Shown here: in pieces, positions 5,104-32,652 of the stretch
Position numbering within the stretch: position 1 is the stretch's first letter
Layout of the letters: the number at the start of each line of letters is the position of its first letter
DNA from: Victivallales bacterium
GTDB lineage: Bacteria; Verrucomicrobiota; Lentisphaeria; Oligosphaerales; Oligosphaeraceae
Assembly: GCA_017535315.1 (NCBI GenBank)
Contig: JAFXUD010000002.1
Span: 186,001 to 250,000, forward strand
Length of the DNA stretch: 64,000 bases
Direction: 5' to 3'
Translations under genes and position numbers: made by a program
The notes under the pieces: model-generated
The model's input: only the letters and a program-made list of their open reading frames with translations
What the model was told of the DNA's origin: nothing
Database searches by the model: none

Positions 5104-5181
5104 TGTTTTTATCCTCTTTAGTAATATAAGTGCAGTCAACCATTCTGTCGATTGATTTGGTTGGTTTTTTTCAAGATTGCT

Positions 5182-5607
5182 TTTTAAGGGACAAGAGCGA
5201 CGGGAGGGACTTGAGCGACGCAAGGGGCACGAGACCATTAACAAGTTTTTTAAGGGACTGGAGCGACTTGAGCGACTTGAGCGACGCAAGGGGCATAATT
5301 ATTTCGTGCCACTTGCGTCGCTCAAGTCCCTCCCGTCGCTCATGTCCCTATAAAGGCATGCTAGTCTCGTGCCCCTTGCGTCGCTCCCGTCGCTCCCGTC
5401 CCTCATGTCCCTTAAAAATCTTGCTAGTCTCATGCCCCTTGCGTCGCTCAAGTCGCTCCCGTCCCTCCTGTCCCTTAAAAATCTTGTTAGTCTCATGCCC
5501 CTTGCGTCGCTCCCGTCCCTCCCGTCGCTCATGTCCCTATAAAGGCATGCTAGTCTCGTGCCACTTGCGTCGCTCCCGTCCCTCCCGTCGCTCATGTCCC
5601 TTTAGAA
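5182..5607. repeat. Intergenic minisatellite built from GAGCGAC/GAGGGAC words, inverted arms
   Basis: The interval is made almost wholly of seven- to nine-base words such as GAGCGACTT, GAGGGACTT and GCGACGCAAGGGGC. The left part (to about 5297) reads in one orientation and the right part carries about five units of roughly 65 bases in the opposite orientation, so transcripts could fold into a long imperfect hairpin. The units on the right are separated by a near-constant AAAAATCTTGCTAGTCTC or TATAAAGGCATGCTAGTCTC. Long translations through it are artefacts of the repeat. It lies between two divergently read genes. Confidence 0.9.
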
Positions 5608-9630: not shown

Positions 9631-10719
9631 ATGAATCCACTTGAGTCCTACATACACAACTCCGAGATGAGGTGCGCCGAGCTTGAGCGCGCCATCTCTG
9701 TGTTTGACTTCAACAATGGCACCCAGGCGCAGTATCAGAAGCTGAACACCGAGTACCAGAAGCTCAAGCGGATCATGGACGCCTGGAACGAGTTGCAGAA
9801 GAGCAAGTCCGATCTTCAGGGCAACGATGAACTGCTGGCGGAGACGACCGATGAGGAGTTCCGCGAGGTCATCAAGTCCGACATCCAGGAGCTGAAGGAT
9901 AGAATCCATGCCCTGGAGGGCGAAATCAAGACCTTGATTCTCCCGACGCATCCCAACGAGGGCAAGAACGTCATCGTCGAGATACGTCCCGCCGCTGGCG
10001 GCGAGGAGGCCGCTCTCTTTGCTGCGGAACTCTACAGGATGTATATGCGCTACTGCGAAACGCAGGGGTGGCACACCGAGACCGTCGAATACAGCGACAC
10101 CGACCTCGGCGGGCTGAAAAGCTGCTCCTTCACCGTTGCGGGCGAGGGGGCCTGGACAAATCTCCGCTTCGAAAGTGGCGTGCATCGCGTCCAGCGTGTA
10201 CCCGTCACCGAGACCCAGGGGCGCATCCACACCTCCACGGTTACGGTGGCCGTGATGGCCGAGGCGACGCCCGTTGAGTTCGAACTGAACCCCGAGGAGC
10301 TACGCATCGATGTCTTCCGTGCCTCGGGACATGGTGGACAGTGCGTCAACACCACCGACTCAGCTGTTCGCGTCACCCACATTCCGACAGGCATGTTCGT
10401 GGCAAGCCAGCAGGAGAAGTCCCAGCACCGTAACAAGGAAATCGCCATGACGATTCTTCGCTCGCGCCTGCTGGAAATCAAACAGCGCGAGGAAGACGAG
10501 AAGAACGCGGGCGAGCGCAAGTCCCAGGTGGGCACGGGCGACCGTAGCGAGAAGATTCGCACCTACAACTTCCCGCAGAACCGCGTGACCGACCACCGCT
10601 TCGAGATTACCCTCTACGACTTGAACAACATTATGCAGGGCAACCTCGGCAACCTCCTGAACCAGATCCGCACCCTTGACGCGGAACGCCGCTTCAACGA
10701 CATGCTTATGCAGGCATGA
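9631..10719 (+). CDS. prfA: Peptide chain release factor 1
   Basis: 362 residues, the normal length. The GGQ motif at 235-237, within ASGHGGQCVN, is the peptidyl-tRNA hydrolysis centre. The stop-codon reading tripeptide is P-V-T at 191-193 (RVPVTETQGRIHTS), which is the PxT of RF1 (UAA/UAG) rather than the SPF of RF2. The helical N-terminal domain and the C-terminal TYNFPQNRVTDHR block are intact. The glutamine of GGQ is the usual target of the methylase PrmC, which is not in this window. The gene follows rpmE by about 70 bases. Confidence 0.97.
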   Translation: MNPLESYIHNSEMRCAELERAISVFDFNNGTQAQYQKLNTEYQKLKRIMDAWNELQKSKSDLQGNDELLAETTDEEFREVIKSDIQELKDRIHALEGEIKTLILPTHPNEGKNVIVEIRPAAGGEEAALFAAELYRMYMRYCETQGWHTETVEYSDTDLGGLKSCSFTVAGEGAWTNLRFESGVHRVQRVPVTETQGRIHTSTVTVAVMAEATPVEFELNPEELRIDVFRASGHGGQCVNTTDSAVRVTHIPTGMFVASQQEKSQHRNKEIAMTILRSRLLEIKQREEDEKNAGERKSQVGTGDRSEKIRTYNFPQNRVTDHRFEITLYDLNNIMQGNLGNLLNQIRTLDAERRFNDMLMQA

Positions 10720-18017: not shown

Positions 18018-19610
18018 ATGAAAACATTGTACAGTTGGATAGGTCATGCAGATTTGAAGAGTTACTATAATAATGAACAAGCTTTTCAATATCGTAATAG
18101 AATTCAACGAATAATTGGACAAGAAAAGGTGTTGTCTGAGTCTTCTACTCTTGGCCCCATAGAGACCGCTATTCATCACTCTGAATATGCAAGAATTGTG
18201 TTATTATGGAGCTATTCGGATACTATACTTTTGTCAGCGTATCAGAAGTTTTTAGGGGCAAACTGTCATGCGATTACTGTTAGAGTTAACAATCCAATCG
18301 ACTATGCTGAGATTTACGATATTGTGGATAATCTCCTGCAGAGTGAGGATTCTTCATCTGATAATGAAAGAGTTATGCTTCTTTCATCAGGCACACCTGT
18401 CATGACTGCCATTTGGCTTCTTCTTGGCAAGACTAAATATCCTGCTTCTTTTTTGCAGGTTTACAACGGAAAAGTCATCCCAACGGATTTACCATTTGAC
18501 ATACGTGTGGATGTTATACATAAGTTGTTAACTAATAATGATAAAAATATAAACGGCATATCAGATGATATGTTAATGGATAATAGTGGCTTTCAAAGTA
18601 TTGTTGGAGAAAGCCAAGCCATTCAAATGGCAGTCACTAGGGGAAAAATGGTTGCATTGCATGATGTCAATGTGCTTTTGACAGGGGAGAGTGGTACGGG
18701 CAAAGAGATGTTTGCACGAGCAATACATCTGGCAGGACATAGGCATAATAAACAATTCATAGCAGTGAACTGTGGGGCATTTTCAGAACAACTGCTTGCT
18801 TCTGAATTATTTGGATATAAAAAGGGAGCATTCACTGGCGCAAATGCCGATAAAGCTGGATTGTTTAAACAAGCTGATGGCGGCACATTGTTTTTAGATG
18901 AAATAGGAGAATGTTCACTTGAAATGCAGAAAACATTGCTTCGTGTACTCCAGCCTCCAGCCGAAAAGCCGTTTACCTACCGTGAGTTCATGCCCATAGG
19001 AGGCACGGAGACAATCCATGCTGATGTTAGGATTATCGCCGCAACTAACAAAGACCTTTTATCAATATCCAATGCGGGACAATTTCGCCTCGACCTCTAT
19101 TATCGTCTAGCTACTACGGCAATATGTTTGCCATCTCTTCGCGAACGGGGAAAAGACGTAGTTCTGCTTGCAGAACGTCTATTGGACAGAATCAATAAGG
19201 AACTTGGCAAAAGACCTGAATACATTACGAAGCATTTGTCTATTGACGCAATAAATGCCATCGAAAAGAACAAATGGCCTGGTAACGTGCGTGAGCTTCT
19301 TAACGTCATCACGCAGGGTGCTGTCATGGCACTTGGAGATACAATTCATCCAGAAGATCTTGGCTTACACATGGATGAAAAGATGAATGAGGTAGCTGTA
19401 GAGGAAGAGAATGACAATGGCAACTCAACGGAAGAAGAGTTAAATCTGGACTTGGCCGTATGCAACTTGAAGAAAAGGCTGATTCATAAGGCTATTGAAG
19501 AATCTGGAAAAAGCAAGTCAATTGCATATAAGTTACTTGGAATGAAGAGCTACCAGCGTTTAGATTCTATGATGAAAAGCCTTGGGATGAAGATGGAGTT
19601 TGATGAGTAA
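18018..19610 (+). CDS. CARF-like domain / sigma-54 activator (RtcR-like) heading the CRISPR locus
   Basis: 530 residues from the ATG at 18018 (AAGGA upstream; a TTG at 18000 was set aside). Residues 1-150 look like a CARF sensor: an opening beta strand (TLYSWIGHADL) and the loop LLSSGTPVMTAIWLLLG, similar to the nucleotide-binding loop of CARF proteins and to the RtcR N-terminus. A full sigma-54 AAA domain follows, with Walker A GESGTGKE (223-230), the sigma-54 contact loop GAFTGA (270-275), Walker B TLFLDE and the arginine-rich block PSLRERGKD. A Fis-type helix-turn-helix lies near 485-525. A sigma-54 promoter starts seven bases after the stop and reads into cmr2. Inferred role: to switch on the cmr operon when bound to a cyclic oligoadenylate. 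The gene is much more AT-rich than the housekeeping genes. Confidence 0.85.
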   Translation: MKTLYSWIGHADLKSYYNNEQAFQYRNRIQRIIGQEKVLSESSTLGPIETAIHHSEYARIVLLWSYSDTILLSAYQKFLGANCHAITVRVNNPIDYAEIYDIVDNLLQSEDSSSDNERVMLLSSGTPVMTAIWLLLGKTKYPASFLQVYNGKVIPTDLPFDIRVDVIHKLLTNNDKNINGISDDMLMDNSGFQSIVGESQAIQMAVTRGKMVALHDVNVLLTGESGTGKEMFARAIHLAGHRHNKQFIAVNCGAFSEQLLASELFGYKKGAFTGANADKAGLFKQADGGTLFLDEIGECSLEMQKTLLRVLQPPAEKPFTYREFMPIGGTETIHADVRIIAATNKDLLSISNAGQFRLDLYYRLATTAICLPSLRERGKDVVLLAERLLDRINKELGKRPEYITKHLSIDAINAIEKNKWPGNVRELLNVITQGAVMALGDTIHPEDLGLHMDEKMNEVAVEEENDNGNSTEEELNLDLAVCNLKKRLIHKAIEESGKSKSIAYKLLGMKSYQRLDSMMKSLGMKMEFDE

Positions 19611-19616
19611 CGATAA

Positions 19617-19633
19617 TTGGCATGGTTTTTGCT
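19617..19633 (+). promoter_or_regulatory. Sigma-54 (-24/-12) promoter of the cmr operon
   Basis: TTGGCATG, four bases, then TTGCT. The invariant GG (19619-19620) and GC (19631-19632) are exactly ten bases apart, and the match to the known consensus YTGGCACG-N4-TTGCW differs by one base. Transcription would begin near 19644, leaving a leader of about 43 bases before the cmr2 ATG at 19687, which has AAAGGA upstream. The adjacent upstream gene encodes a sigma-54 activator. Confidence 0.85.
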
Positions 19634-19686: not shown

Positions 19687-22341
19687 ATGGCAACAGATGA
19701 AAATGTTTGGAAAAGAAAGCTGAAGGCCTATCTGCATGACCCACCATGCAAGGCCATGGACATAAGGGAACACGAAAGGATTGCAGCTAGCTTTTTGAAG
19801 GCAGAATTCCCCGAGGACGAACGGTTCTCTGTAGAGGCAAAGCAGGCAGATCATTTGGCATCCTCGATAGATCGTTTCCCTTTTCCACAGGGCGTGGCAT
19901 CATCCTTCTTTGACGGAAAGCACTCTCATTCTTTCCGCCATCCCTTTATGAGCAGTGATGACAACTGGTATAAAGTCGATTTGAAGACGGTGCCGCTATA
20001 TGAAGAGGCCTTGCATAATGCCGTGAAGGGTATTCAAGGAGATGTCAAACAAAAGTTCTATTTGTACTGGCGGCGGTGGCGTGAGGAAAGTGTACTTCAA
20101 AACATGTCTGAGCTGGCTTTCTTCCCTGCAGATACGCGTATTCCAGACCATTCAATTTGGACACATTTGGATGTGACATCCGCCTTGCAAGGATGCTTTA
20201 ATCTTGAAAAAGGCAAGATTGAACCTGCATTTCTGATATTCCAAGCTGGCCCCGTACAGAGCTTTGTTGCGGCAGCACGGTCAACGCGCGACCTCTGGAG
20301 TGGCTCCTATATGCTTTCCTGGCTGACAGGCAACGCAATCAAGGCCGTTACAGACGAGTGCGGTCCCGATTCCATTATCTTCCCTGCCTTGCGTGGTAAT
20401 GGCATTTTTGATATCCTTAACAAAGAAGATATCTACGACAAGATTTCATTTACTGGAAAAGCGGGGGAAACAGAGACGCTTTGGGATCGCCTTTATGGCA
20501 AGCGTGAGGAGATGGTGAAAACCTTGACAAACCCGACACTGCCCAACCGCTTCTTTGCCGTGGTTCCTGCTTGGAAGGCAAAGGAGCTTGCGCAAAATGC
20601 CGAAAATGCGTTTCGCAAGGAATTGGAGAGAATCTCTGAACGATGCCTTGCAGAGTTTCAGAAGCACATTGAAAAGAAGGAAGTTGCCTTTGATGAAAGC
20701 TGGGCAGAACGCTGGCGGAAACAGGTTGCTCTTCACCCTGAAATCACATGGCAGGTTTATCCTGCTGACACAGATATTGAGACCATTTTGGAAAAGGCCG
20801 TGAAACTGCCTGGACAGGATTCCCTTACATCGCAATTGAACAATGTCAAGAAGATGATTGAATTCGCTACGGTGAAAATGCCGGTGGCAGAACGGGATGA
20901 ACGCTACTATGCAGATGCATCTAAGACCCGTCTGAAAAGTTGGGGGATTGCTTGGGCATTGAACTATGCCCAGACGGAACACAGGTTGGCTGCCCGTAGA
21001 AACACACGTGATTTCCTTGCTTTCCAGACGGATGATTTCCAGGCAGGTGCGCCGAAGGATGCACTAACAGGCATGGCGGAAGTCATCGGCACGGAGGAAT
21101 TGTGGAAAGAAAAACTGCGCGCCCCAAAGGGGCAGCCCAAAGATGACGTACGGTGGTTCTTCAACTACAACGAGAAGTGCTATGGGGCATTGAGTATTAT
21201 CAAGCGGATATGGTGTGCCAGCAATGAGAGTTATCTTCTTGCGAAGCTTGGCATTTCACGCGAGGAGTTCAAGAAGGCCATTCGATTTGACTCCGTGCTG
21301 GATGTTGCCGAGAAAAACAGGCGTGGAAGAAAGGAGAATGGTAAAAGCAGCAGCCCATACGTGGCGGTAATCGCATTGGATGGTGACGAGATGGGCAAAT
21401 GGCTCAGCGGGGAAAAGGCACCGCAATACAAGTACCTTCTCGCTGGTAATGCGTTGGAGTATTTCAAGGCGAACGGATATGAGGACATCAAACGCTCCTT
21501 GACGCCTTCTTGGCATCTCCAATTCTCGGAGGCACTTTCCAACTTCTCCAACTACATTGCTGAAAAAGTGGTTGACACCTATGATGGGCAGTTGATTTAC
21601 GCTGGAGGAGATGATGTGATAGCCATGCTTCCTGCCGACCAGGCTCTGGAATGTGCCTGCGCTCTGCGTGGACTATTCAGGGGAGATTGGAAGTTCCTTG
21701 AAGAGTGTGTGCCTGGTTATTCAAAGCTGAAGCAGCAGAAGATAGAGGCAACGCAGAACGGCTTTGTCGAGGCAGATTCAAAGCAGCTTTTGGTTCCAGG
21801 CTGTGATGCGGATGTTTCCTGCGGGATTGCGGTTGCACATTGCAAATACCCCTTGCAGAATATCGTGGCTGAGGCGCGAAAAGCGGAGACACGGGCAAAG
21901 ACACACCATGGGCGCGGAGCGGTTGCTGTTTCACTTCTCAAGCGTAGCGGCGAAATTATCCATTGGGGCACCAAATGGAATTCTGGTGCCGTGGAGCTGT
22001 ACAATCAATATAATGCCTTGTGCGACATGGAAGGCGAAGAGGCCCCTGGAAAACGCTTCCCATACGCGCTTGCAGCTCTACTGGACAACTACGGCCTTGA
22101 CAAGGGACAGTTCGTGGATGGTTTCGATGTAAAAGGAGTTCTTCTTCAAGAGTTCGACCATGTCCTGTCGCGGCAAATGGCCAATGTGCCTGAAAGTGTC
22201 CAAAAAGAGTTACGAGACAAGGCAGAACACTACCTTGACCAGTTGCTACTCTCCCATGTTGATGGGAAAGACACTCTTGCCGATTTTGGCAAGCTGTTTT
22301 TGGTTGCGGCATTCATCGAGAGAAACAGGGAGGATTTGTGA
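19687..22341 (+). CDS. cmr2: Type III-B CRISPR protein Cmr2/Cas10
   Basis: 884 residues, the large subunit of the Cmr complex. The N-terminus has the Cmr2 form of the HD site (AYLHDPPCKAMDI followed by EHERI), so DNase activity is possible. The first palm strand is VAVIALDGDEMGKWLSG. The cyclase motif GGDD at 640-643 (IYAGGDDVIAMLP) is intact, so the protein should make cyclic oligoadenylate when the complex binds target RNA. The intact cyclase agrees with the CARF-type proteins encoded on both sides. It is the first gene of the cmr operon, directly downstream of the sigma-54 promoter; cmr3 starts immediately after the stop. Confidence 0.95.
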   Translation: MATDENVWKRKLKAYLHDPPCKAMDIREHERIAASFLKAEFPEDERFSVEAKQADHLASSIDRFPFPQGVASSFFDGKHSHSFRHPFMSSDDNWYKVDLKTVPLYEEALHNAVKGIQGDVKQKFYLYWRRWREESVLQNMSELAFFPADTRIPDHSIWTHLDVTSALQGCFNLEKGKIEPAFLIFQAGPVQSFVAAARSTRDLWSGSYMLSWLTGNAIKAVTDECGPDSIIFPALRGNGIFDILNKEDIYDKISFTGKAGETETLWDRLYGKREEMVKTLTNPTLPNRFFAVVPAWKAKELAQNAENAFRKELERISERCLAEFQKHIEKKEVAFDESWAERWRKQVALHPEITWQVYPADTDIETILEKAVKLPGQDSLTSQLNNVKKMIEFATVKMPVAERDERYYADASKTRLKSWGIAWALNYAQTEHRLAARRNTRDFLAFQTDDFQAGAPKDALTGMAEVIGTEELWKEKLRAPKGQPKDDVRWFFNYNEKCYGALSIIKRIWCASNESYLLAKLGISREEFKKAIRFDSVLDVAEKNRRGRKENGKSSSPYVAVIALDGDEMGKWLSGEKAPQYKYLLAGNALEYFKANGYEDIKRSLTPSWHLQFSEALSNFSNYIAEKVVDTYDGQLIYAGGDDVIAMLPADQALECACALRGLFRGDWKFLEECVPGYSKLKQQKIEATQNGFVEADSKQLLVPGCDADVSCGIAVAHCKYPLQNIVAEARKAETRAKTHHGRGAVAVSLLKRSGEIIHWGTKWNSGAVELYNQYNALCDMEGEEAPGKRFPYALAALLDNYGLDKGQFVDGFDVKGVLLQEFDHVLSRQMANVPESVQKELRDKAEHYLDQLLLSHVDGKDTLADFGKLFLVAAFIERNREDL

Positions 22342-23565
22342 ATGATGAAATACAGAATCGATTTTGAAGCACGAGATTTACTCTACTTTGGTGATGGGCA
22401 TGAGGCGGATGGCTCTATGGCTGGCAATGGCTCAAATTGGCCATTACCATCGGTTGTCAATTCCGCACTGATACAGGCCATGCATCGGGGGCTTGAAGAG
22501 AAGGTCGGCGAAATAGAGTCCAAACACACGAGTTTGAATAAGCGTGAAAGACAAAAAGGGAGCGGTGTGCGTTTCAGCTTTGGGGGCACGCAGACTATTG
22601 GTCCTTTCCCCGTGAAGAATGGTAAAATGCTCATTCCGATTCCAGCCGATTTACAGATGGGGGCGGACAAGGCGTTCCAGTTGATGCACATTCTCGACAA
22701 CGACGGGGAAAACAATCTGCCGAGTCCCTTGACAAAGTTAGTTGCGCCAGTTCTTCCTCCTTCCAAGGAGGAACCAGGCTCCTGGATGGAGTGGGATGAC
22801 CTGGAAGGCTATTTAGAGGGCTGTGCCGCATTCAAGTCCATCCAGACCTCTGAAATCTACAAGTCGGAATGGCGAATGGGTCTCGGCATTGATGCCTCGA
22901 CGCAGACTGTCGAGGATGGAAAACTGTATTCTGCTGAGTATATGCGCTTGGAACAAGGTGTTGCCTTGCGGGTCTATGCCTCATACGAAGCCTCTGGCTA
23001 TCATGGAAAGAACAAGACAGACATAATGGCGAACGCAAAAGAACAGCGCATTTTGGAGCATATCACACTTGGTGGACAACAGGGTGTGGCTATGCAGGTT
23101 GCCTTTGAGGAGGAAACTCTCAAATTACCTCCCATCAAACCGACGAGACGGCTCAAATGGATTCTTTTGGCTCCCGCTCTCTTTTCGGCTGGTTGGCGAC
23201 CAGGCTTCGTGGATGCCACAGGAAAGGTTCGCCTGAAACAGGATACTATTCCCCGTGGAAAACTCCCACGGGACGAATGGCGCAGGCAGATGCGCCAGGC
23301 TTCTGAAATCAATGCGAAACTAGTGGCGGCGCGCATCCCCAAGCACAAGGTTGTTTCTGGATGGAAGCTCAATGGTTCCACTACTGGACAGCCAAAGGCC
23401 TCCAGACGGCTTGTCCCAGCTGGCAGTGTGTTCTATTTCGAATGCGATGACGATTCGAACGCGAAGATGCTCGCAACGGTCTTGCATGGCCGCATGCACT
23501 CCGATGAGTGCGGCGAACAGGGATTCGGTTTTGGTGTCTGTGGTAATTGGAATAATCAAATCTAA
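22342..23565 (+). CDS. cmr3: Type III-B CRISPR protein Cmr3
   Basis: 407 residues. The start (YRIDFEARDLLYFGDGHEA, then NWPLPSVVNSALIQAM) is the usual beginning of Cmr3. The RAMP glycine-rich loop near the C-terminus reads GEQGFGFGVCGNW. In the complex Cmr3 sits with Cmr2 at the crRNA 5' end and holds the repeat-derived tag. A GGGAGG ribosome binding site lies inside the end of cmr2, and the ATG directly abuts the cmr2 stop; a second ATG follows at once. The gap to cmr4 is 16 bases. Confidence 0.85.
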   Translation: MMKYRIDFEARDLLYFGDGHEADGSMAGNGSNWPLPSVVNSALIQAMHRGLEEKVGEIESKHTSLNKRERQKGSGVRFSFGGTQTIGPFPVKNGKMLIPIPADLQMGADKAFQLMHILDNDGENNLPSPLTKLVAPVLPPSKEEPGSWMEWDDLEGYLEGCAAFKSIQTSEIYKSEWRMGLGIDASTQTVEDGKLYSAEYMRLEQGVALRVYASYEASGYHGKNKTDIMANAKEQRILEHITLGGQQGVAMQVAFEEETLKLPPIKPTRRLKWILLAPALFSAGWRPGFVDATGKVRLKQDTIPRGKLPRDEWRRQMRQASEINAKLVAARIPKHKVVSGWKLNGSTTGQPKASRRLVPAGSVFYFECDDDSNAKMLATVLHGRMHSDECGEQGFGFGVCGNWNNQI

Positions 23566-23581
23566 ACAGGAGAATGCTATT

Positions 23582-24469
23582 ATGAAACTCAACAAAGTTG
23601 TTACATTGTTTGCGCGTACCCCTCTTCATGTCGGTGCAGGTAATTCTGTCGGTGCCATTGATTCCCCCATCATTCGTGAACGCCACACCAATGTGGCGTT
23701 GATTCCAGGTTCCTCCCTGAAAGGGGTCTTGGCTGACCTTTGGAAGAATGAAAAGATTGGTACTAAGAAAGTCGATGGCAAGGAGGTTGATGTCCTAGGG
23801 CGTGGAGAAGAGGCCAGGGAGATTTTTGGCGATGATTCTCAAGACAAATTCTGTGCAGGCGAGTTGCTGGTTGGCGAGGCCAGGGTGGTTGCGTTCCCCG
23901 TTCGCTCTGCCAAAAACTCCTTTGTCTGGATTGTTTCACCAATGGTATTGCAACGTTTTTATCGAGACTTTGGAAAAAAGATGCCAAATCTTCTAGAGCT
24001 TGATGAGAAAAGTTGTCTTGCACCTGATGAAGTCTGTCTTGATGGCAACGTCGTCTTGGAAGAATACTTGTTCCAGAAAAAAGGTACAGTCAATCAAGAA
24101 ATAGTAGATATCTTCAAAGCTCTATCAAACGAGCCTCTTTGGAAAGATACTAACGCGAGCCGTCTTGTTATTGTCAGTGACGAGATTTTCTCCTATTTTA
24201 TCAAAAACGCCTGTGAGGTGACGACTCGCATCCGCATAGAAGACACAATCGGGAGTGTAGCCAAAGGTGCGTTGTTCAATCAAGAGCAACTTCCCTCGGA
24301 AACCATGCTTTATGCCATTCTTGGTGAACTTGAGCTTCCTAGGAGTCAACCCATAAATGCCGTTGATAAGGTTAAAACCAAGGTCGAACAAGCCAATAAT
24401 CTTTTGCAGATTGGCGGCGATGCCACCATCGGCCTCGGATTCTGCTCTGTCAACTTTATCAATCTGTAG
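23582..24469 (+). CDS. cmr4: Type III-B CRISPR protein Cmr4 (backbone RNase)
   Basis: 295 residues from the ATG at 23582, which follows AGGAG. A longer in-frame reading begins inside cmr3 and was discarded. Family blocks are TLFARTPLHVGAGNSVGAIDSPIIRERHT and IPGSSLKGVLADLW, and the C-terminal glycine loop is QIGGDATIGLGFCSV. Cmr4 copies form the helical backbone along the crRNA and cut target RNA at six-base intervals. The catalytic aspartate of the family is likely the one in AIDSPI, near residue 26. It is co-transcribed with cmr3 and cmr5. Confidence 0.92.
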   Translation: MKLNKVVTLFARTPLHVGAGNSVGAIDSPIIRERHTNVALIPGSSLKGVLADLWKNEKIGTKKVDGKEVDVLGRGEEAREIFGDDSQDKFCAGELLVGEARVVAFPVRSAKNSFVWIVSPMVLQRFYRDFGKKMPNLLELDEKSCLAPDEVCLDGNVVLEEYLFQKKGTVNQEIVDIFKALSNEPLWKDTNASRLVIVSDEIFSYFIKNACEVTTRIRIEDTIGSVAKGALFNQEQLPSETMLYAILGELELPRSQPINAVDKVKTKVEQANNLLQIGGDATIGLGFCSVNFINL

Positions 24470-24480
24470 GAGGAACAACC

Positions 24481-24810
24481 ATGAAAAATCTTGAACAGAT
24501 ACGCGCTAAAAACGCTATGCCCAAGCAGGAAGGTGCATCTTTGGTTGACACTGCAAAGGCGATGACCACTATGATTATGGACAATGGCTTGCTTGCCACG
24601 GGTGCCTTTGCCAAGGAAAAAGGTGGAGAGTACCAGCAAGTGACAGAAACTATATACAAGCATCTGGCTGATGCAGAGATTCATTTGATAACTCGTCCAG
24701 CAAGCATAGTTGAGTTTATTAGACTTCTCTGCAACATGGAGGCCGTACAACTTCGGTTAATTACAGCTGAAACTATGGCATTCATGAACTATATGCGGCG
24801 TTTGTCTTGA
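24481..24810 (+). CDS. cmr5: Type III-B CRISPR protein Cmr5 (small subunit)
   Basis: A 109-residue all-helical protein. It opens NLEQIRAKNAM, the characteristic Cmr5 start, and continues with VDTAKAMTTMIMDNGLLATGAFAKEK, a typical Cmr5 helix pair. Cmr5 forms the belly of the complex with Cmr4 and contacts target RNA. TAGGAGGAA lies eight bases upstream of the ATG. The stop is 20 bases before the cmr6 ATG. Confidence 0.93.
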   Translation: MKNLEQIRAKNAMPKQEGASLVDTAKAMTTMIMDNGLLATGAFAKEKGGEYQQVTETIYKHLADAEIHLITRPASIVEFIRLLCNMEAVQLRLITAETMAFMNYMRRLS

Positions 24811-24830: not shown

Positions 24831-26063
24831 ATGATTCCCAATTACTTAAGAGATATTCAAGTCCGCGAAAAGACTGATTCCCCTTCGTTGCGGCTAGAAA
24901 AATACGTGATACTCGGAGACACCAAAGAGTATAAATCTCGTGAAATCAACGGCGTGATTGACGCATATAAAAAAGGTGCAAGGAATTGCAATCTGCTTTT
25001 CATACATCCAGCTGCGGAAAACGTCAGGTTAATGCTTAGGGGACGTTTAATCATCAACCAGGCGGGAGGTGTGTTGGAGAATAGCGGTCTCTGCCTTCAT
25101 CGCAATCTTGGGATACCATATATCCCAGGCAGTGCGGTCAAAGGGGTGACACGCCATTATGCCTGGGAAAAGTGGAATGAGGCACCAGAAGAAGAAAAGC
25201 TGGCTTTGGCAGAAAAGATTGCCAAGAACTTTGGGTTTCCAACAGGAGATTCGAAGAGGGAACCAAAGCTGGATGACTATCTTCGCGAGCAGAAACCTGA
25301 AGAATATACGCAGGAAACTATCTTTTCAGGGGCTGTTTCATTTCTGGGAGGTATTCCCGAAACAACTCCCAGACTGGTGAAGGATATCGTAACTCCACAT
25401 CATCTTAAGTATTACGCAGAAGATGCAGATTACCTTGAACACTACAACGGCCTTGCACTAGATAATGAGATTCCTATCCCCAACCCTTTTCTTGCAATCG
25501 AAAGTGGAGTACGCTTTGTATTCCAACTGCTTCTTCTAAAGCCAACAGAAGGGGATTTGGCATGGTGCAAAGATATGCTTGTCCACGCACTTCGGTATAA
25601 TGGAATTGGCTCCAAGACTTCTGCTGGCTATGGCTGGTTTGACGATGGAAAGACAAAGGCGGAAATTGAAAAAGAAGGCTTAGAAGCAAAAAAGCAAGAA
25701 CGGGAAGAAGCTGCAAAAAAACGAGACGAAGAAGAAACACGTATTCAACGTGAAATAGCAGAACGTATTCGTCTGCAAAATGAAGAGGAAGCCAACGCAA
25801 AAAAAGAAAAACTATCTAGCAAAGGCTTTGAAGGATTTGAAGACATAGGATGGAGTAGTATGCAGAAGAAGATAGAAAAACTACTGAAAGCAGGCATTGT
25901 CTTTTCTGAAGAACAAAAATCAGAATTGGAACAGATTATCTCCGATAATTCTAAAATACAGGCAAAGGATATCGAAAAGAGCAGGAACTCTTTTAAACGT
26001 TATTTTGGAGATGAAGGAGAAACCTTTGACCGCATTATGGCACGAAAGGGAGGCCAGGCATGA
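24831..26063 (+). CDS. cmr6: Type III-B CRISPR protein Cmr6 with long charged C-terminal extension
   Basis: 410 residues from the ATG at 24831, which has AAAGGAG upstream. The RAMP core covers about residues 40-280: GLCLHRNLGIPYIPGSAVKGVTRHYAW, FSGAVSFLGGIPE, IVTPHH and the glycine loop GIGSKTSAGYGWF. A normal Cmr6 would end soon after that loop. Here about 125 further residues follow: a Glu/Lys/Arg helix (EREEAAKKRDEEETRI and more) and then a second helical block ending FDRIMARKGGQA. The tail may bind a partner or lengthen the 3' end of the complex; its role is unknown. Its stop overlaps the cmr1 start. Confidence 0.88.
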   Translation: MIPNYLRDIQVREKTDSPSLRLEKYVILGDTKEYKSREINGVIDAYKKGARNCNLLFIHPAAENVRLMLRGRLIINQAGGVLENSGLCLHRNLGIPYIPGSAVKGVTRHYAWEKWNEAPEEEKLALAEKIAKNFGFPTGDSKREPKLDDYLREQKPEEYTQETIFSGAVSFLGGIPETTPRLVKDIVTPHHLKYYAEDADYLEHYNGLALDNEIPIPNPFLAIESGVRFVFQLLLLKPTEGDLAWCKDMLVHALRYNGIGSKTSAGYGWFDDGKTKAEIEKEGLEAKKQEREEAAKKRDEEETRIQREIAERIRLQNEEEANAKKEKLSSKGFEGFEDIGWSSMQKKIEKLLKAGIVFSEEQKSELEQIISDNSKIQAKDIEKSRNSFKRYFGDEGETFDRIMARKGGQA

Positions 26064-27094
26064 AAACATACACCGTGACATTCGAATTGGTCACCCCTTG
26101 CATTTCCGCAGGGGCTGGCCAGAAAAGTGCAGAAATCCGTGTACCAGAAATACGTGCCTTGTTTCGTTCTTGGCTTAGATGGGCTGGTATGGGAAGAGAT
26201 GTCGAGGAAACACTCTTTGGCAAACTGGGCGAGTCCCCTAAAGCGGGTAAAATAGTCGTTAGAATGACTAGTAGACAACCACAATCAATAGAGCTTGTAC
26301 CACCTAGAAATGATTATTTTCTCTGGACGCTAGCACATCAAGCTAATAACCGTGGTTTCTTCCGTCCAGGTGCAGAAATTGAATTGGAAATCCTTGATAG
26401 GGCTGAACAAACGAATAGTATTTCTTTCAGAAAAGTCCTTGAAATGGCTCTTCTTCTAGGCAGTCTTGGCACACGCTCACGCCGTGGATATGGCTCCATT
26501 TATCCTGTAAGTGTCGTTTGTGATGACGGTTGGGAAATGACAGTTCCCCGCACGCTTCAGGTATTCAAAGATAAATTAACGGAATTCAACCTGAAAGGTA
26601 TCAGGATTCTGTCTTTGGGAAAGGTGGTAAATGATTACAGTAATGCAATTAGTCAGTGTTCGATTTTCCTTCATAAGGCTCGCTGTGGAAGCAATGGACC
26701 AGCGATAAACGCTTCACAGTGGGGTAGTGAGGACAATGAAGGAATCAGGTCGCAGAATCCCTCTACATTATCGCGTCCTGCCTTGGGCCTTCCCATGCCA
26801 ATTCGATATAAAAGGGGAGGCCAATATAGTATTACTCTTTCGGATGATGAAAAAGAAAGCCGCTGGGCAAGTCCTGTGATCTTCAAGGTGATTAAACTAA
26901 ATCAAGACCATGTCCCACTTGCTATTTTTCTGAAAAGGTATTGTATGCCCGAAGGCACAGACCTCAAGGTTAACGTCATAGGAACCAGAAGAGTAATGAA
27001 TGCGTCAGCAAGTCGTAAGCTGTTTGATGTACTTATGAATCCTGCAAGGCACAAAGAGTTCGATTTCAACGGAGCAGAGGTTCTTTGGGGATAA
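26060..27094 (+). CDS. cmr1: Type III-B CRISPR protein Cmr1
   Basis: 344 residues. The N-terminal RAMP domain starts with TVTFELVTPCISAGAGQ, then PEIRALFRSWLRW, which is the Cmr1 signature, and carries the glycine loop LGSLGTRSRRGYGS near residues 135-150. Cmr1 caps the crRNA 3' end with Cmr6. The start overlaps the cmr6 stop (ATGA) and has GGGAGG upstream. Cmr1 placed last, after Cmr6, differs from the cmr1-first order of many loci. The following 200 bases hold no gene but do hold strong hairpins. Confidence 0.92.
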   Translation: MKTYTVTFELVTPCISAGAGQKSAEIRVPEIRALFRSWLRWAGMGRDVEETLFGKLGESPKAGKIVVRMTSRQPQSIELVPPRNDYFLWTLAHQANNRGFFRPGAEIELEILDRAEQTNSISFRKVLEMALLLGSLGTRSRRGYGSIYPVSVVCDDGWEMTVPRTLQVFKDKLTEFNLKGIRILSLGKVVNDYSNAISQCSIFLHKARCGSNGPAINASQWGSEDNEGIRSQNPSTLSRPALGLPMPIRYKRGGQYSITLSDDEKESRWASPVIFKVIKLNQDHVPLAIFLKRYCMPEGTDLKVNVIGTRRVMNASASRKLFDVLMNPARHKEFDFNGAEVLWG

Positions 27095-27103
27095 AAAAAG
27101 AGT

Positions 27104-27217
27104 CTGTCCTATGCAGAGGGCGCAAGCTCGCGGAACTGCCACCGCCAAAGAACGGGGGGGCAGCCCCCCGCCCCCCGTTAGGGGGGCTGTCCTGTGCGCG
27201 AGCGACAAGCTTGCGGA
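27104..27217 (+). promoter_or_regulatory. GC-rich spacer with mutually exclusive hairpins between cmr1 and the CARF nuclease
   Basis: AACGGGGGG (27151-27159) can pair with CCCCCCGTT (27171-27179), while CAGCCCCCC (27161-27169) can pair with GGGGGGCTG (27181-27189); both cannot form together. The pair is flanked by two related 31-base segments (27104-27134 and 27187-27217), both beginning CTGTCCT and ending GCGGA. This could be an attenuator that sets downstream expression or the scar of an insertion. The rest of the gap up to 27297 holds a ribosome binding site (AAAGGAG) and no clear promoter. Confidence 0.5.
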
Positions 27218-27297
27218 GGCGTGGGGTGATGGCCTTTTGACGATGGTCGTTATCCCTAGCGCATTTTCTCTATAACCATGTCTATAAAGGAGTAGTT

Positions 27298-28440
27298 ATG
27301 TCTCATCATTTATGTTTAGTTTCTGACCAGACGATGCCAAACTATCTGCCTATCAAGGCGCAAGAGATTAAGCCTTCCAAAGTCACCTTGGCGGTTACTG
27401 ATAAAATGAAAACACAGGGTGAACGCCTGAGGCAGGAGTTAAGTGGACACGGCATCATGGTTGACATCTTAAGCTTGGGCGCGGACGCCGCTTCGTTCGA
27501 CGAGCTTCAGGATATCTTTCTTGAATGGGTTAGCAACCATGAAACGGAGGATATCGTTCTGAATGTCACAGGGGGGACAAAACCAATGGCCATTGCCGCG
27601 CAGGAAGTTTTCCGAGGATTTCGAAAGCCCGTCTTCTATGTGGATGTCGATACGGACAAGGTCTGGTGGCTGGACAGCAGCCTGGACACCCCCAAATGGA
27701 GTGTCAAATGCAATATTACCAAACCTATCACGACCGCCACATACCTCGCATTGCATGGCGTTACGCTGGAAAGCGGCCAGCAGGCTTTTAAGAATCCAGA
27801 ATGGTTCGAGTTTGCGAAGGAACTGGCAGAAAAGGCCAGTAACAGAAACTTCGGCAATCTGCTTGGACAGCTTAATCGCTTGGCCAAGGAAGCCGAAAAC
27901 CGCAACTCTCTGGATGGGGGCCAGGGGGACGTTTCATCGACGGAATGGATGAATCTTCTGGAAAGTCTTTGGGCAAACGAGATTACACGCGACAAAACAC
28001 GGCTGCTCTTCCGTTCAAATGAAGCCAGGTTTTTTGCCAATGGCGGCTGGTTGGAGGCATACTTGTTCCATTACATCAAGAGGATTGTGCCCTATAATGA
28101 CACAACTTATCTCAATTCCATCCTGAAAGGCGCAAGCGGCGAAAGGAATGAAATCGACGTGTTGACACAGACACACAATCAACTATTTGTCTTTGAGTGC
28201 AAAACCCGTAATTACTCAAATGAAAATAGCGCGGCGGAAGCTCTTTACAAGTTGCTGGCCATTGGAAGTCCAAAGAACATCGGCCTCCGCACTAACAACA
28301 TTTTTGTCACCTATCGCGACCTCAATGATGCAGACCTAAAGCGCGCAGACAGCTATCGTATTAAAATCATTAGGGCTAATGAACTGCACCCTAAGCATAT
28401 AGAATCAAAACTTAAAGCTATCTTGGAAAGAGAATTATGA
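27298..28440 (+). CDS. CARF-domain nuclease, Can2/Card1-like (DUF1887)
   Basis: 380 residues. The N-terminal CARF domain has the characteristic loop NVTGGTKPMAIA (TGGTK at 91-95) that binds cyclic oligoadenylate in this family. A linker leads to a C-terminal PD-(D/E)xK-type nuclease: D287 in NEIDVL, then E300 and K302 in FVFECKT. Can2/Card1 enzymes are dimers that nick DNA and, in some cases, cut RNA when bound to cyclic tetra-adenylate, causing dormancy or phage resistance. The length is typical of the family. AAAGGAG precedes the ATG. The stop overlaps the next gene (ATGA), the candidate ring nuclease. Ligand size (cA4 or cA6) is not readable from the sequence. Confidence 0.88.
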   Translation: MSHHLCLVSDQTMPNYLPIKAQEIKPSKVTLAVTDKMKTQGERLRQELSGHGIMVDILSLGADAASFDELQDIFLEWVSNHETEDIVLNVTGGTKPMAIAAQEVFRGFRKPVFYVDVDTDKVWWLDSSLDTPKWSVKCNITKPITTATYLALHGVTLESGQQAFKNPEWFEFAKELAEKASNRNFGNLLGQLNRLAKEAENRNSLDGGQGDVSSTEWMNLLESLWANEITRDKTRLLFRSNEARFFANGGWLEAYLFHYIKRIVPYNDTTYLNSILKGASGERNEIDVLTQTHNQLFVFECKTRNYSNENSAAEALYKLLAIGSPKNIGLRTNNIFVTYRDLNDADLKRADSYRIKIIRANELHPKHIESKLKAILEREL

Positions 28441-28817
28441 CCACTATAGACACATCATCCGTTCTCATCGGCAACTCGTTTCCCCTGTCTCTGATTCGGC
28501 GTAGCGTGCGAATTGAACCAATAAGTGAGGTGGATCTGATTGCTACAATCAAAGGCGGCCAGATAGCATCCTTTTGGGGACATTCCAACACCTTGGCGGC
28601 TGTCAATGGCTGGCTCGGCTTGGATTTAACGCCAAAATCAGAGCGTCCTGTATTATGCCTGTCAGAAAACAAACTGCCGCAGTTGGATGGAGTGGAGTAC
28701 CAGGCATGTTTTATCTTCTCTCCCGACTACCGTCCTGGCTTCCGTCCCGCTATCGGAGCAGAGGTTGATGCGGCCAATATTATAGGCTGGCAAATTCTGA
28801 AAATCGTCTGGGAATAA
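28437..28817 (+). CDS. Candidate ring nuclease of the DUF1874 (Crn2/AcrIII-1-like) type
   Basis: 126 residues. The order of elements resembles DUF1874 proteins: a first strand with a GNSFPLSLI turn, an SEVDLIATIKGG helix, then SFWGHSNTLAAVNGWLGLDLTP. There the histidine (H49) in G-H-x-x-T occupies the place of the catalytic histidine (H47) of the viral SIRV1 gp29 ring nuclease. The C-terminal part carries PGFRPAIGAEV, where the family has an R-L-x-E-G-type motif. Similarity is by eye and partial. Its four-base overlap with the CARF nuclease fits a signal-degrading partner that clears cyclic tetra-adenylate. Alternatively it is an unrelated small Csx protein. Confidence 0.5.
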   Translation: MTTIDTSSVLIGNSFPLSLIRRSVRIEPISEVDLIATIKGGQIASFWGHSNTLAAVNGWLGLDLTPKSERPVLCLSENKLPQLDGVEYQACFIFSPDYRPGFRPAIGAEVDAANIIGWQILKIVWE

Positions 28818-28821
28818 GTTA

Positions 28822-29844
28822 ATGCCTACACTCTACATCAACGGAAAAGACACGGAGGTCAATCTGGATGACAGGCGGTTGGCTATCAACTGGATGGACT
28901 TGAAGAACGATGAGGTTTTCAGCAGGGATGTACCGTTGCACGACCTCGACCGCGTTGTGATCATCGGGATGCCATCCATCTCGATGGCAGTCCTGCACTC
29001 GCTGCTAAAGGCAGAAATACCCGTTTTCCTCCTTTCCTACAACGGCCACTGGCTGGGCAGCATGATGCCAAACAACGACATGAACGGGGCACGGCGTCTG
29101 CGCCAGTATGAGGTCTCTAGCGATGAAGACCTGCAGTTGCGCGTTGCCAAACGTCTTGTCCATGCCAAGATACGGAATATGCGCCGCGTTTTGCAACGTT
29201 TGGCTGCCAATCGTAAACAGTCAGCAGATATGGAGCAGCTCGACGCATGTAACTCCCTTGCCGCCCTGATCAACGATCTGGAGCGGACGGATTTGCTTGA
29301 ATCCGTCAGAGGCTATGAAGGCGTTGCTACAGCCATCTATTTCAAGCGGCTTGGTGCCTTTTTCCCGCCCGAATTCCCCTTTGTCTCGCGAAGTCGACAC
29401 CCCCCACAGGACGAGACCAACTCCCTGCTCTCTTGGACTTATACCATCGTGATGGCAGAAATTGAGGCGGAAATCCGCTGCGCAGGACTGGATCCCTGTT
29501 TTGGATTCCTGCATGAAATCTCCACTGGACGCTCCTCTTTGGCTTGCGACCTGCTTGAGCCGTTGCGGGCACCGCTGTGCGATTTGCTTGTAATGAACCT
29601 TGTCAACCACGGACTCATCAAGAAGGAACACTTCCACAGGGATGCGGACGACGGCGGAGTCTATCTCAACAACAGTGCACGTGGCATCTTCTTCAATGAG
29701 TACGAGGAGTATATGCTGCGCCGATTCGCCGAAACAAAAGGAGGAATGCACGTGAACTTCCGAAAGGTCATCTTCAACATGATTCATGCCATCTGCAACA
29801 CAATTGAGGACAAGGAGGATAGGGATTTCTTTCTGATGCCATGA
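28822..29844 (+). CDS. cas1: CRISPR integrase Cas1
   Basis: 340 residues. The N-terminal beta domain (about 1-80) starts TLYINGKDTEVNLDD. The catalytic metal ligands are in place: E166 in RGYEGVA, H231 in GFLHEISTG, D243 and E246 in CDLLEPLR. Cas1 with Cas2 integrates new spacers at the leader end of the array. No reverse transcriptase or Cas6 domain is fused. The gene begins four bases after the candidate ring nuclease and overlaps cas2 by four bases. Confidence 0.96.
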   Translation: MPTLYINGKDTEVNLDDRRLAINWMDLKNDEVFSRDVPLHDLDRVVIIGMPSISMAVLHSLLKAEIPVFLLSYNGHWLGSMMPNNDMNGARRLRQYEVSSDEDLQLRVAKRLVHAKIRNMRRVLQRLAANRKQSADMEQLDACNSLAALINDLERTDLLESVRGYEGVATAIYFKRLGAFFPPEFPFVSRSRHPPQDETNSLLSWTYTIVMAEIEAEIRCAGLDPCFGFLHEISTGRSSLACDLLEPLRAPLCDLLVMNLVNHGLIKKEHFHRDADDGGVYLNNSARGIFFNEYEEYMLRRFAETKGGMHVNFRKVIFNMIHAICNTIEDKEDRDFFLMP

Positions 29845-30230
29845 CGACACTAACTGACGAATATGACAGAGGCATCAACTGGCCAGACAGGTACTACCCT
29901 GCCGACCGAATCCCGTATGACCCTATCGATCAAGATATCAAAAATATGATGAGAATCATTGCATACGACATTTGCGATGCAACGCGCTTGCGCAAGGTAG
30001 CCAAAATATGCGAACTTTACGGAGTCCGCATCGAGAAAAGCGTCTTTGAAGCAGACTTGACCGATGAGCTTTTTACTCAGTTCTGGTGTGAACTTATGGA
30101 CATTATCGAAGAAGACGATGACGCTGTCATCGCTTACCCCATCCCCAAGAATGCCGCTAGGGAAATCCTTTCCATGGGCATCATCAAACGCCCGATGAAG
30201 CGACTCTGCTATGTCTGCGGATGCTGCTGA
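29841..30230 (+). CDS. cas2: CRISPR protein Cas2 with N-terminal extension
   Basis: 129 residues if it starts at the overlapping ATG (29841). The Cas2 fold begins at residue 36: MMRIIAYDICDATRLRKVAKICELYGVRIEKSVFEADL, written here only as the family block with the metal-site aspartate in the first strand. The preceding 35 residues, rich in Asp, Tyr and Pro, are unusual; two ATG codons at 29946 and 29949 would give a normal-length start but have no good ribosome binding site. The C-terminus ends in a cysteine cluster (CYVCGCC). It pairs with Cas1 in spacer integration. The array leader begins directly after its stop. Confidence 0.88.
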   Translation: MTTLTDEYDRGINWPDRYYPADRIPYDPIDQDIKNMMRIIAYDICDATRLRKVAKICELYGVRIEKSVFEADLTDELFTQFWCELMDIIEEDDDAVIAYPIPKNAAREILSMGIIKRPMKRLCYVCGCC

Positions 30231-30422: not shown

Positions 30423-32652
30423 CTCAAACAGCACCCTTTAACCGAAAGGTGATTGAGACGTTAGGATGATGCTTGTCATGCCGCAGCCCTCCCTGTACTC
30501 AAACAGCACCCTTTAACCGAAAGGTGATTGAGACCTTGCCCGCCCTGCGCGTTGTCCACGAAGAAAGCGTGGCTCAAACAGCACCCTTTAACCGAAAGGT
30601 GATTGAGACGTTGTTGCTAACTCTGTTAATTGCCTTGCAAGCTCCTACTCAAACAGCACCCTTTAACCGAAAGGTGATTGAGACCGGAATCTCCTCGGGT
30701 GTCTTGTTCATGTTCAGCCTTTCTCAAACAGCACCCTTTAACCGAAAGGTGATTGAGACTAAAAACTCCTTGACTTCATTAACCACGGCGCCAATCCTCT
30801 CAAACAGCACCCTTTAACCGAAAGGTGATTGAGACTTCACAATAGGTTTTAGCGTATTCCTCTTCCAACTTACTCAAACAGCACCCTTTAACCGAAAGGT
30901 GATTGAGACTTCCAAGGAGAGACATGATTTGATTCTTCAAGGTCTCTCAAACAGCACCCTTTAACCGAAAGGTGATTGAGACGGTTTTCAATCCACCAGC
31001 TAGCGGATTCGTGCTTCTCGCACTCAAACAGCACCCTTTAACCGAAAGGTGATTGAGACTCTGCATCGCCTCCGTGAATCTAACCGCAAACTCAACGGCT
31101 CAAACAGCACCCTTTAACCGAAAGGTGATTGAGACTAGCCATAATAAACCTCCTAAAGTTAAATTTCACCACACGCTCAAACAGCACCCTTTAACCGAAA
31201 GGTGATTGAGACTGAGGTAATCGCCATTGCCATTGTTGAAGCGGGTGTGGAAGCTCAAACAGCACCCTTTAACCGAAAGGTGATTGAGACGGTTACGCCA
31301 CACGTATTATCGAGACTAAAACACACGCTCAAACAGCACCCTTTAACCGAAAGGTGATTGAGACACATTATCGTGTCAACATATTTCCCGTCCATCCGAT
31401 ACCTCAAACAGCACCCTTTAACCGAAAGGTGATTGAGACGGGAAGGTGGCAATCAGGTTGCCGCGTCCGTCAACTAGCCTCAAACAGCACCCTTTAACCG
31501 AAAGGTGATTGAGACGCCAGTTTCTCCACATCACAATCACCAATAGCCATAGCCTCAAACAGCACCCTTTAACCGAAAGGTGATTGAGACTATTTCGCTT
31601 TCAATCAATTCAACTTGCATTTTGCACTCAAACAGCACCCTTTAACCGAAAGGTGATTGAGACACGCCACACGAAAACGCGAATCCATCACACGCGCATA
31701 TACTCAAACAGCACCCTTTAACCGAAAGGTGATTGAGACCCCCAATTTTGTTTTGGACATAATCCGACTTGCCAACTAGACTCAAACAGCACCCTTTAAC
31801 CGAAAGGTGATTGAGACTTGCAAGCTCCGAGTGTTGATATCTCTCTAACCGCCTTGCCCTCAAACAGCACCCTTTAACCGAAAGGTGATTGAGACGAATT
31901 GATATTCCATATCTTTGTACATGACTTTTGCGCCACTCAAACAGCACCCTTTAACCGAAAGGTGATTGAGACCTTATCCGTGGGATACAGCTTCTTCGAC
32001 ACGGCAAACAATCTCAAACAGCACCCTTTAACCGAAAGGTGATTGAGACATAAGGCACGCCACACACACCTAATGCACACAAGACACAGCTCAAACAGCA
32101 CCCTTTAACCGAAAGGTGATTGAGACTGTAATACCATTTTGCCTTTTTCAAGTCTTCCTGCCAGCTCAAACAGCACCCTTTAACCGAAAGGTGATTGAGA
32201 CTTCTGGATGCGCTTGCAAAGCCCGTAGGCGGCGGCTTCGGGCTCAAACAGCACCCTTTAACCGAAAGGTGATTGAGACGTGTCCTCGTCGGGGTTGTAG
32301 TTGTCTCCACAGTCCCCCGCTCAAACAGCACCCTTTAACCGAAAGGTGATTGAGACGTAGCCGCTTTTTGCGCGGTTGGTCGGATCGGGCAAACCTCAAA
32401 CAGCACCCTTTAACCGAAAGGTGATTGAGACGCGGGTTTTCCATGCACAATATACATATTCTGCATGATGCTCAAAAAGCACCCTTTAACCGAAAGGTGA
32501 TTGAGACCGCCAACACCTGATGGTACAGGCACACCAAACCTGGACTCAAACAGCACCCTTTAACCGAAAGGTGTTTGTGACTGGATTCCAGGATGGTATA
32601 GTATGCGTCCCTGCAAGTTTGCCTAAACAGCACCCTTTAACAGAATACTGTG
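30423..32652 (+). CRISPR. CRISPR array: 29 recognisable 37-nt repeats plus one decayed terminal repeat
   Basis: The repeat begins CTCAAACAGCACCC and ends GGTGATTGAGAC. Its inner part can form a stem of CCTTT with AAAGG. The first 27 copies, starting at 30423, 30498, 30573 and so on to 32395, are identical. Copy 28 (32471) has one change, copy 29 (32545) has two changes near its end, and copy 30 (32622) is largely lost. Period is 73-78 bases, so spacers are 36-41 bases. The repeat end ATTGAGAC is the typical eight-base crRNA 5' tag, so transcription runs on the plus strand, away from cas2. Decay at the far end confirms the older, leader-distal side. Spacer targets cannot be named from sequence alone. 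Confidence 0.99.

Follow-up and report, generated by a model that had tools for sequence, protein, structure and literature searches.

A type III-B CRISPR locus of a Victivallales bacterium encodes a CARF nuclease and, overlapping the end of the nuclease gene, a protein of 126 residues. The locus raises the question of how such a nuclease is switched off once its signal has appeared, and whether the small protein is the enzyme responsible. The nuclease Can2 is activated by cyclic tetra-adenylate (cA4), and no ring nuclease activity was seen when it was tested (PMC7969007). The authors propose that its shut-off is "outsourced" to an adjoining crn2 or csx16 gene (PMC7969007), so a small ring nuclease next to can2 is to be expected rather than surprising. 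Here we analysed the locus within a 64,000-nucleotide stretch of DNA (the window) taken from a 4.9 Mb assembly.

Organisation of the type III-B locus

The type III-B locus is complete, comprising cas10 with its GGDD motif, cmr1, cmr3-6, cas1, cas2 and an array of 29 repeats, and the cyclase is apparently intact. All genes lie on the forward strand. The cas10/cmr2 gene (19687-22341; TIGR02577, E=2e-72) encodes HD at residue 17 and the GGDD cyclase motif at residue 640, and its product is presumed to be the source of cyclic oligoadenylate. It is followed by cmr3 (22342-23565; TIGR01888, E=7e-22, below the cut-off of that model), cmr4 (23576-24469; TIGR02580, E=2e-55), cmr5 (24481-24810; TIGR01881, E=1.6e-6), cmr6 (24831-26063; TIGR01898, E=3e-28) and a divergent cmr1 (26060-27094), which was assigned from its operon position and homologues together with a match to TIGR01894 that falls below the cut-off (E=0.003).

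Downstream of cmr1 lie the two open reading frames that a preliminary description of this DNA had reported as an overlapping pair, and both were found. The can2/card1-like effector gene (27298-28440, 380 residues) and the gene for the 126-residue protein (28437-28817) share the ATGA at 28437-28440, an arrangement compatible with translational coupling. Overlaps of four bases at ATGA are frequent in bacterial operons. The overlap was seen in the window locus and not in related loci, where homologues of the small gene are located before can2, upstream of cas10, after can2 with an intervening gap, or at sites lacking can2. What is conserved of the proposed unit of effector and signal remover is the functional association, in that the small gene keeps company with type III loci and CARF effectors; the overlapping arrangement is confined to this genome. 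The cas1 gene (28822-29844; TIGR00287, E=6e-68) starts four bases past the stop codon of the small gene, and is followed by cas2 (29841-30230), whose homologues pair with cas1 in related loci, and by the CRISPR array (30423-32581), in which a 37-base repeat occurs 29 times at a spacing of about 76 bases.

The 203 bases between cmr1 and can2 (27095-27297) are GC-rich and contain a strong inverted repeat. This gap may place the effector and adaptation genes on a separate transcript. The notion that it represents a repeat family was dropped, as its recurrence in the genome was limited to one 33-base stretch.

The effector is a Can2/Card1 nuclease

The product of 27298-28440 contains a CARF domain (approximately residues 4-120, with TGGTK at 91-95) and a PD-(D/E)xK nuclease domain (approximately residues 241-364, with E285/D287, E300 and K302). 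The residues cited in the preliminary description (T91-G-G-T-K95, D287, E300 and K302) all occupy the positions given there. Both domains were matched well above the Pfam cut-offs, by CARF_Card1 (PF23400, E=1.1e-16, 61.5 bits against 24.6) and by Card1_endonuc (PF09002, E=1.5e-20, 73.6 bits against 26.4). The protein also matched the PDB entry 7bdv "Can2" (E=7e-33) and the PADLOC model CARF_PDDEXK (E=5e-86). With Pfam, PADLOC and the PDB in agreement, the original call of a Can2/Card1-like effector was right, and by homology the assignment to the Can2/Card1 CARF-PD-(D/E)xK nucleases is beyond doubt.

The small protein is predicted to adopt a DUF1874 fold

The 126-codon frame is a real gene, with 22 full-length matches in the genomes sampled and nine residues invariant over 38 sequences. 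Searched alone, its product gave no credible match in Pfam (none at E<=10), NCBIfam, PADLOC or PHROGs, only chance matches. The DUF1874 model PF08960 was likewise silent in its own genome and in 289 genomes of the phylum, while a Bacillus subtilis control genome gave a signal. PF08960 was nevertheless the best Pfam family across the 38 relatives; its best match (E=0.008) fell short of the cut-off, which no single member of the family reached.

Profile-based comparisons were more informative. When a profile of the 38 sequences was searched against the PDB, three of 177,635 sequences had E<10, and all three were DUF1874 proteins (SIRV1 114, AFV3-109 and STIV B116; E 0.11-0.92). The individual E-values are weak, but it is telling for this sequence comparison that the matches share a single family. 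Alignment of the family with an independent alignment of 12 viral or plasmid DUF1874 proteins using hhalign gave 93.5% and E=2e-7 over residues 8-79. With trimmed profiles the score was 45.2; 200 column shuffles averaged 11.0 and reached no more than 20.7, and the reversed profile scored 12.7. The profile match is confined to residues 8-79, and the likeness of the C-terminal part relies on the structural model.

An AlphaFold2 model built from the family's own alignment had a pLDDT of 92.9 and a pTM of 0.85. It was built without templates and without DUF1874 sequences, and the evidence from the fold is therefore largely independent of that from sequence. In a Foldseek search of the PDB the best 15 matches were all DUF1874/AcrIII-1/Crn2 structures with probability 1.00, including AcrIII-1 in 6scf and Csx1-Crn2 in 8y7g, and the 16th had E=0.79 and probability 0.09. 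TM-scores of the fold matches were moderate (0.49-0.61). The DUF1874 family again ranked first in a viral structure library. The resemblance to DUF1874 suggested earlier from a short motif and the order of elements is thus borne out by structure and by profile-profile comparison, while no direct match was obtained to PF08960 or to a Csx family.

Other identities were considered and set aside. No match to Csx15, Csx16 or Csx20 was found among the NCBIfam CRISPR and ring nuclease models, PADLOC or Pfam, where these libraries have models, and these three identities were rejected on both fold and profiles. For Csx16 (PF09652), neither the protein nor its 38-member family gave a profile match, and the model found nothing in the 289 phylum genomes, with controls equally silent. 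Crn4 was rejected because DUF1874 was the sole fold matched and no T-x-H occurs near the N terminus. A phmmer search of the PDB also matched Spo0F (E=0.02), which was discounted as a relative because neither the family profile nor the fold supports it.

Conservation of the putative active site

The G48-H49-x-x-T52 motif is present where the preliminary description placed it. In the structural family, residues G46, H47, T50 and R66 of SIRV1 gp29 align with G48, H49, T52 and R70 of the small protein. G48, H49 and R70 were found in all 38 sequences, and T52 in 37. The invariant set also includes L19, S45, W47, L75, P81 and P104, with G12, F15, P16, R21, R103 and W118 among those nearly invariant. 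The aligned histidine matters in a characterised relative, as the H495A substitution in Csx1-Crn2 abolished degradation of cA4 (PMC7293037).

One difference concerns an acidic residue. The DUF1874 segment R85-L-x-E88-G89 corresponds to R103-P-x-[IVP]-G107 in the family, and the glutamate is gone at the aligned position: E88 is nearly invariant in DUF1874, whereas position 106 is isoleucine, valine, proline, leucine or alanine. Judging from this substitution, catalysis may be altered. One might speculate that D97 (aspartate or glutamate in 30 of the 38 sequences) or E109 (conserved in 29) provides a displaced acidic substitute; the alignment with DUF1874 in this C-terminal region is not settled by profiles.

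Association with type III systems

Full-length matches to the small protein were found in 22 of the 289 phylum genomes, its own included, the others being 41-57% identical. A scan of public genome contigs gave 39 loci with relatives, mostly from Lentisphaerota/Verrucomicrobiota. In this evenly drawn sample, 46 genomes gave a Cas10/Cmr2 match and 20 of them had the gene, compared with 2 of the 243 that gave none. Conversely, Cas10 was matched in 20 of the 22 gene-bearing genomes and in 26 of the 267 others (Fisher p=3e-16, which is nominal as the genomes are related), and one of the two gene-bearing genomes that gave no Cas10/Cmr2 match does have Cas10 by tblastn.

The neighbourhoods of 43 cellular loci were tallied by tblastn with cas and neighbouring proteins, on contigs that were often short and after duplicate records had been merged by hand. 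In 37 loci a core gene of a type III system was detected, either Cmr or another Cas10 accompanied by Cas6/RAMP genes, and 42 had some gene linked to type III systems or CARF effectors. The partners varied, with a Can2-like protein in 13 loci, a Csx1-like CARF-HEPN protein in five and a four-gene cassette in 13; any CARF-bearing partner was found in 31. Steady presence beside changing effectors is as expected of an enzyme that removes their signal.

Marginal matches with E>1e-4 (L023-L026) were discarded, and L049, a response-regulator protein, was not counted as a relative. Apparent gene fusions were also rejected. In two long open frames (L009 and L016) the extra frame is of low complexity and resembles out-of-frame translation, and in a third (L010) the gene's own ATG lies deep inside the frame.

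Outside cellular genomes, close homologues were absent from phage and plasmid collections with the exception of one 69 kb IMG/VR contig (IMGVR_UViG_3300005613_000049, L051). It carries a phage-borne homologue of 118 residues that is 43% identical (4992-5345) and retains SFWGH-x-N-T, and its neighbours include proteins matching PHROGs. The phage copy is a candidate new anti-CRISPR belonging to the branch of the 126-residue protein.

A model for signal removal and its alternatives

The predicted fold, the profile match, the conserved H49 and the type III/CARF context support a model in which the 126-residue protein very probably acts as a cA4 ring nuclease, of a divergent Crn2 type within the DUF1874 superfamily, and thereby resets Can2. 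Here dimerisation, ligand, cleavage and the effect on Can2 are carried over from characterised relatives. Binding of invader RNA by the Cmr complex would lead Cas10 to synthesise cA4, which would switch on the Can2 nuclease and cause indiscriminate cutting of nucleic acid, harming the cell itself if left on. A dimer of the small protein would then bind cA4, and H49 together with R70 and other conserved residues would open the ring to yield linear A2>P. With the loss of cA4, Can2 would be turned off and the cell could recover.

The missing equivalent of E88 and the remodelled C-terminal segment are also what might be seen in a DUF1874-fold protein that has lost catalysis but binds cA4 and, in the manner of a sponge or a sensor, adjusts the threshold of Can2. 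Loss of catalysis need not abolish binding in this fold, as the H47A variant of AcrIII-1 is inactive yet retains cA4 binding (KD about 25 nM; PMC7213978). We regard this alternative as unlikely, because H49 and R70 do not vary across the family and T52 hardly does, the phage copy included, and a mere binder has no evident need for a catalytic histidine. Slightly less probable still is a ring nuclease directed at other or wider signals (cA3, cA5 or cA6), or a hydrolase of SAM-AMP. The aromatic collar SFWGH and the altered C-terminal segment do set the protein apart from Crn2, many relatives lie near an undescribed cassette, and broad specificity exists in Crn4 (PMC12830947). The commonest identified partners, however, are Can2 and Csx1-like CARF-HEPN proteins, both of them cA4 families, and those Crn2 proteins that have been characterised act as ring nucleases on cA4 (PMC12409355; PMC7293037).

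It appears very improbable that the fold serves a purpose unconnected with cyclic nucleotides, for instance binding DNA or assembling a complex. "DNA binding protein" is the annotation of some viral DUF1874 records, and one relative (L072) lies outside any CRISPR locus; against this stand the conserved catalytic signature, the association of the gene with type III cores and with CARF effectors of several kinds, and the existence of a copy in a phage, as is also the case for AcrIII-1.

Relationship to known ring nucleases

The protein was compared with Crn2/AcrIII-1 (DUF1874, PF08960), with SIRV1 gp29 (2x4i, 6scf), STIV B116 (2j85) and AFV3-109 (2j6b) as references. The two groups resemble each other in predicted fold, order of elements and size, and share N-x-F near the N terminus, G-H-x-x-T, an arginine about 20 residues further on (R66/R70) and a C-terminal R-x-x-x-G. 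Both are found in CRISPR loci as well as in viruses. They differ in that the 126-residue protein falls below the Pfam cut-off, does not conserve E88, has SFWGH in place of an aliphatic residue before GH, carries extra residues around an LSPDY strand, and has gained W118 and W125. Because it lies below the Pfam definition and lacks the nearly invariant E88, the protein is a divergent branch of the DUF1874 superfamily and not a member of PF08960.

The can2-crn2 and can2-csx16 neighbours described previously (PMC7969007) likewise have a gene for Can2 and one for a distinct ring nuclease side by side within a type III locus; here the genes overlap, and the branch is missed by the DUF1874 model. 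The Marinitoga Csx1-Crn2 fusion (PMC7293037; 8y7g, 8y7f) also joins a CARF effector to Crn2, and its structures are among the best 15 fold matches, but it is one polypeptide with an HEPN ribonuclease, whereas two proteins and a PD-(D/E)xK nuclease are found here. Crn4b (PMC12830947) is similarly a small, Can2-associated ring nuclease with a catalytic histidine; its fold is unrelated, its family was described from type III-D loci, and its T-x-H ... R signature is absent from the 126-residue protein. Csx16 is another small ring nuclease near can2, and a structural match between Csx16 and the Crn2 homologue 2j6b has been reported (PMC12409355); the family described here differs in lacking a Csx16 profile match.

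The pairing of Can2 with a Crn2-type ring nuclease is already known. The novelty lies in the branch, in how frequent it is within this bacterial group, in its range of partners and in the phage copy. No description of the branch was found in the literature surveyed, which did not extend to a 2020 CARF classification, and an earlier mention is possible. A 2025 survey found Crn2 in only seven prokaryotic loci and in 36 phage genomes, and made the case that Crn2 is chiefly a viral anti-CRISPR that hosts have acquired (PMC12409355). The present branch is mostly cellular, and since it is invisible to the DUF1874 model and occurs in 22 of the 289 genomes, including 20 of the 46 in which Cas10/Cmr2 was matched, these results suggest that cellular Crn2 is commoner than thought. 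The branch would offer the missing off-switch for Can2 loci that seemingly have none, and is a natural test of which residues, E88 in particular, are required for DUF1874 catalysis.

A CARF-sigma54 activator upstream of the operon

Immediately upstream of cas10 is a gene for a CARF-AAA+-HTH sigma54 activator of the RtcR_PspF2 type (18018-19610, forward strand; PADLOC PDLC01995, E=1.4e-143; PF00158 Sigma54_activat, E=5e-63). The 76-base gap between the two genes contains a sigma54 -24/-12 promoter-like site, TTGGCATGGTTTTTGCT (19617-19633, forward strand), which is the sole match with at most one mismatch in the 64 kb; the mean expected by chance is 0.24 per window. The genome contains rpoN, and a similar -24/-12 element adjoins the activator gene in four of six activator relatives (L116-L119), with the queried type III genes not seen nearby. 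Taken together, the near-perfect site in the gap, the presence of rpoN and the recurrence of the element suggest that the activator probably drives the operon from a promoter at 19617-19633.

It had also been proposed that three proteins of this locus read or remove the same signal, and for the activator this was not supported. Its CARF domain has SSGTP in place of the TGGTK of Can2, without the lysine, and its relatives have S-[SP]-G-T. The queried type III and effector genes were not found within the stretches fetched for the six relatives. RtcR-like CARF domains are described as unusual for their lack of CRISPR association, with relatives linked to restriction-modification and different ligands suggested (PMC4012209). 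On the basis of the motif, the context of the relatives and this literature, the activator probably does not read cA4 and senses something else.

A broader picture is offered tentatively. The small protein may represent a separate, mainly cellular DUF1874 lineage that has rearranged its active site (E88 absent, WGH as collar) and partners Can2, Csx1-like proteins or the cassette, and whose operon here is switched by a CARF-sigma54 activator, so that transcription, nuclease and signal removal would form one circuit.

Further settings of the small gene

The cassette beside homologues of the small gene consists of up to four genes (encoding about 160, 310, 390 and 460 residues). It is exemplified by Oligosphaera ethanolica (L076, 10652-14785) and occurs also in L053, L055, L058, L061, L064, L067, L068, L069, L074 and L088, among others. 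The product of gene 4 has a C-terminal CARF domain (PADLOC, E about 1e-6). That of gene 2 shows a weak likeness to sigma factors (NCBIfam RpoD, E=0.02), and sigma factors made up most of the top fold matches (E>=0.016) for what is a poor model; no match was found for the two remaining genes. The cassette may be a type III effector or a transcription module that has yet to be described.

In Lentisphaeria UBA7640 a homologue (L040, 13447-13857, reverse strand; L072, 4976-5356) has no CRISPR gene nearby and adjoins genes that appeared by eye to be hydrogenase-related. It may act in trans, or be the remnant of a mobile element. At another type III-B locus (L078), several copies or fragments of the small gene were observed (219-269, 1311-1439 and 9998-10387), one next to cas10 and one after a CARF nuclease.
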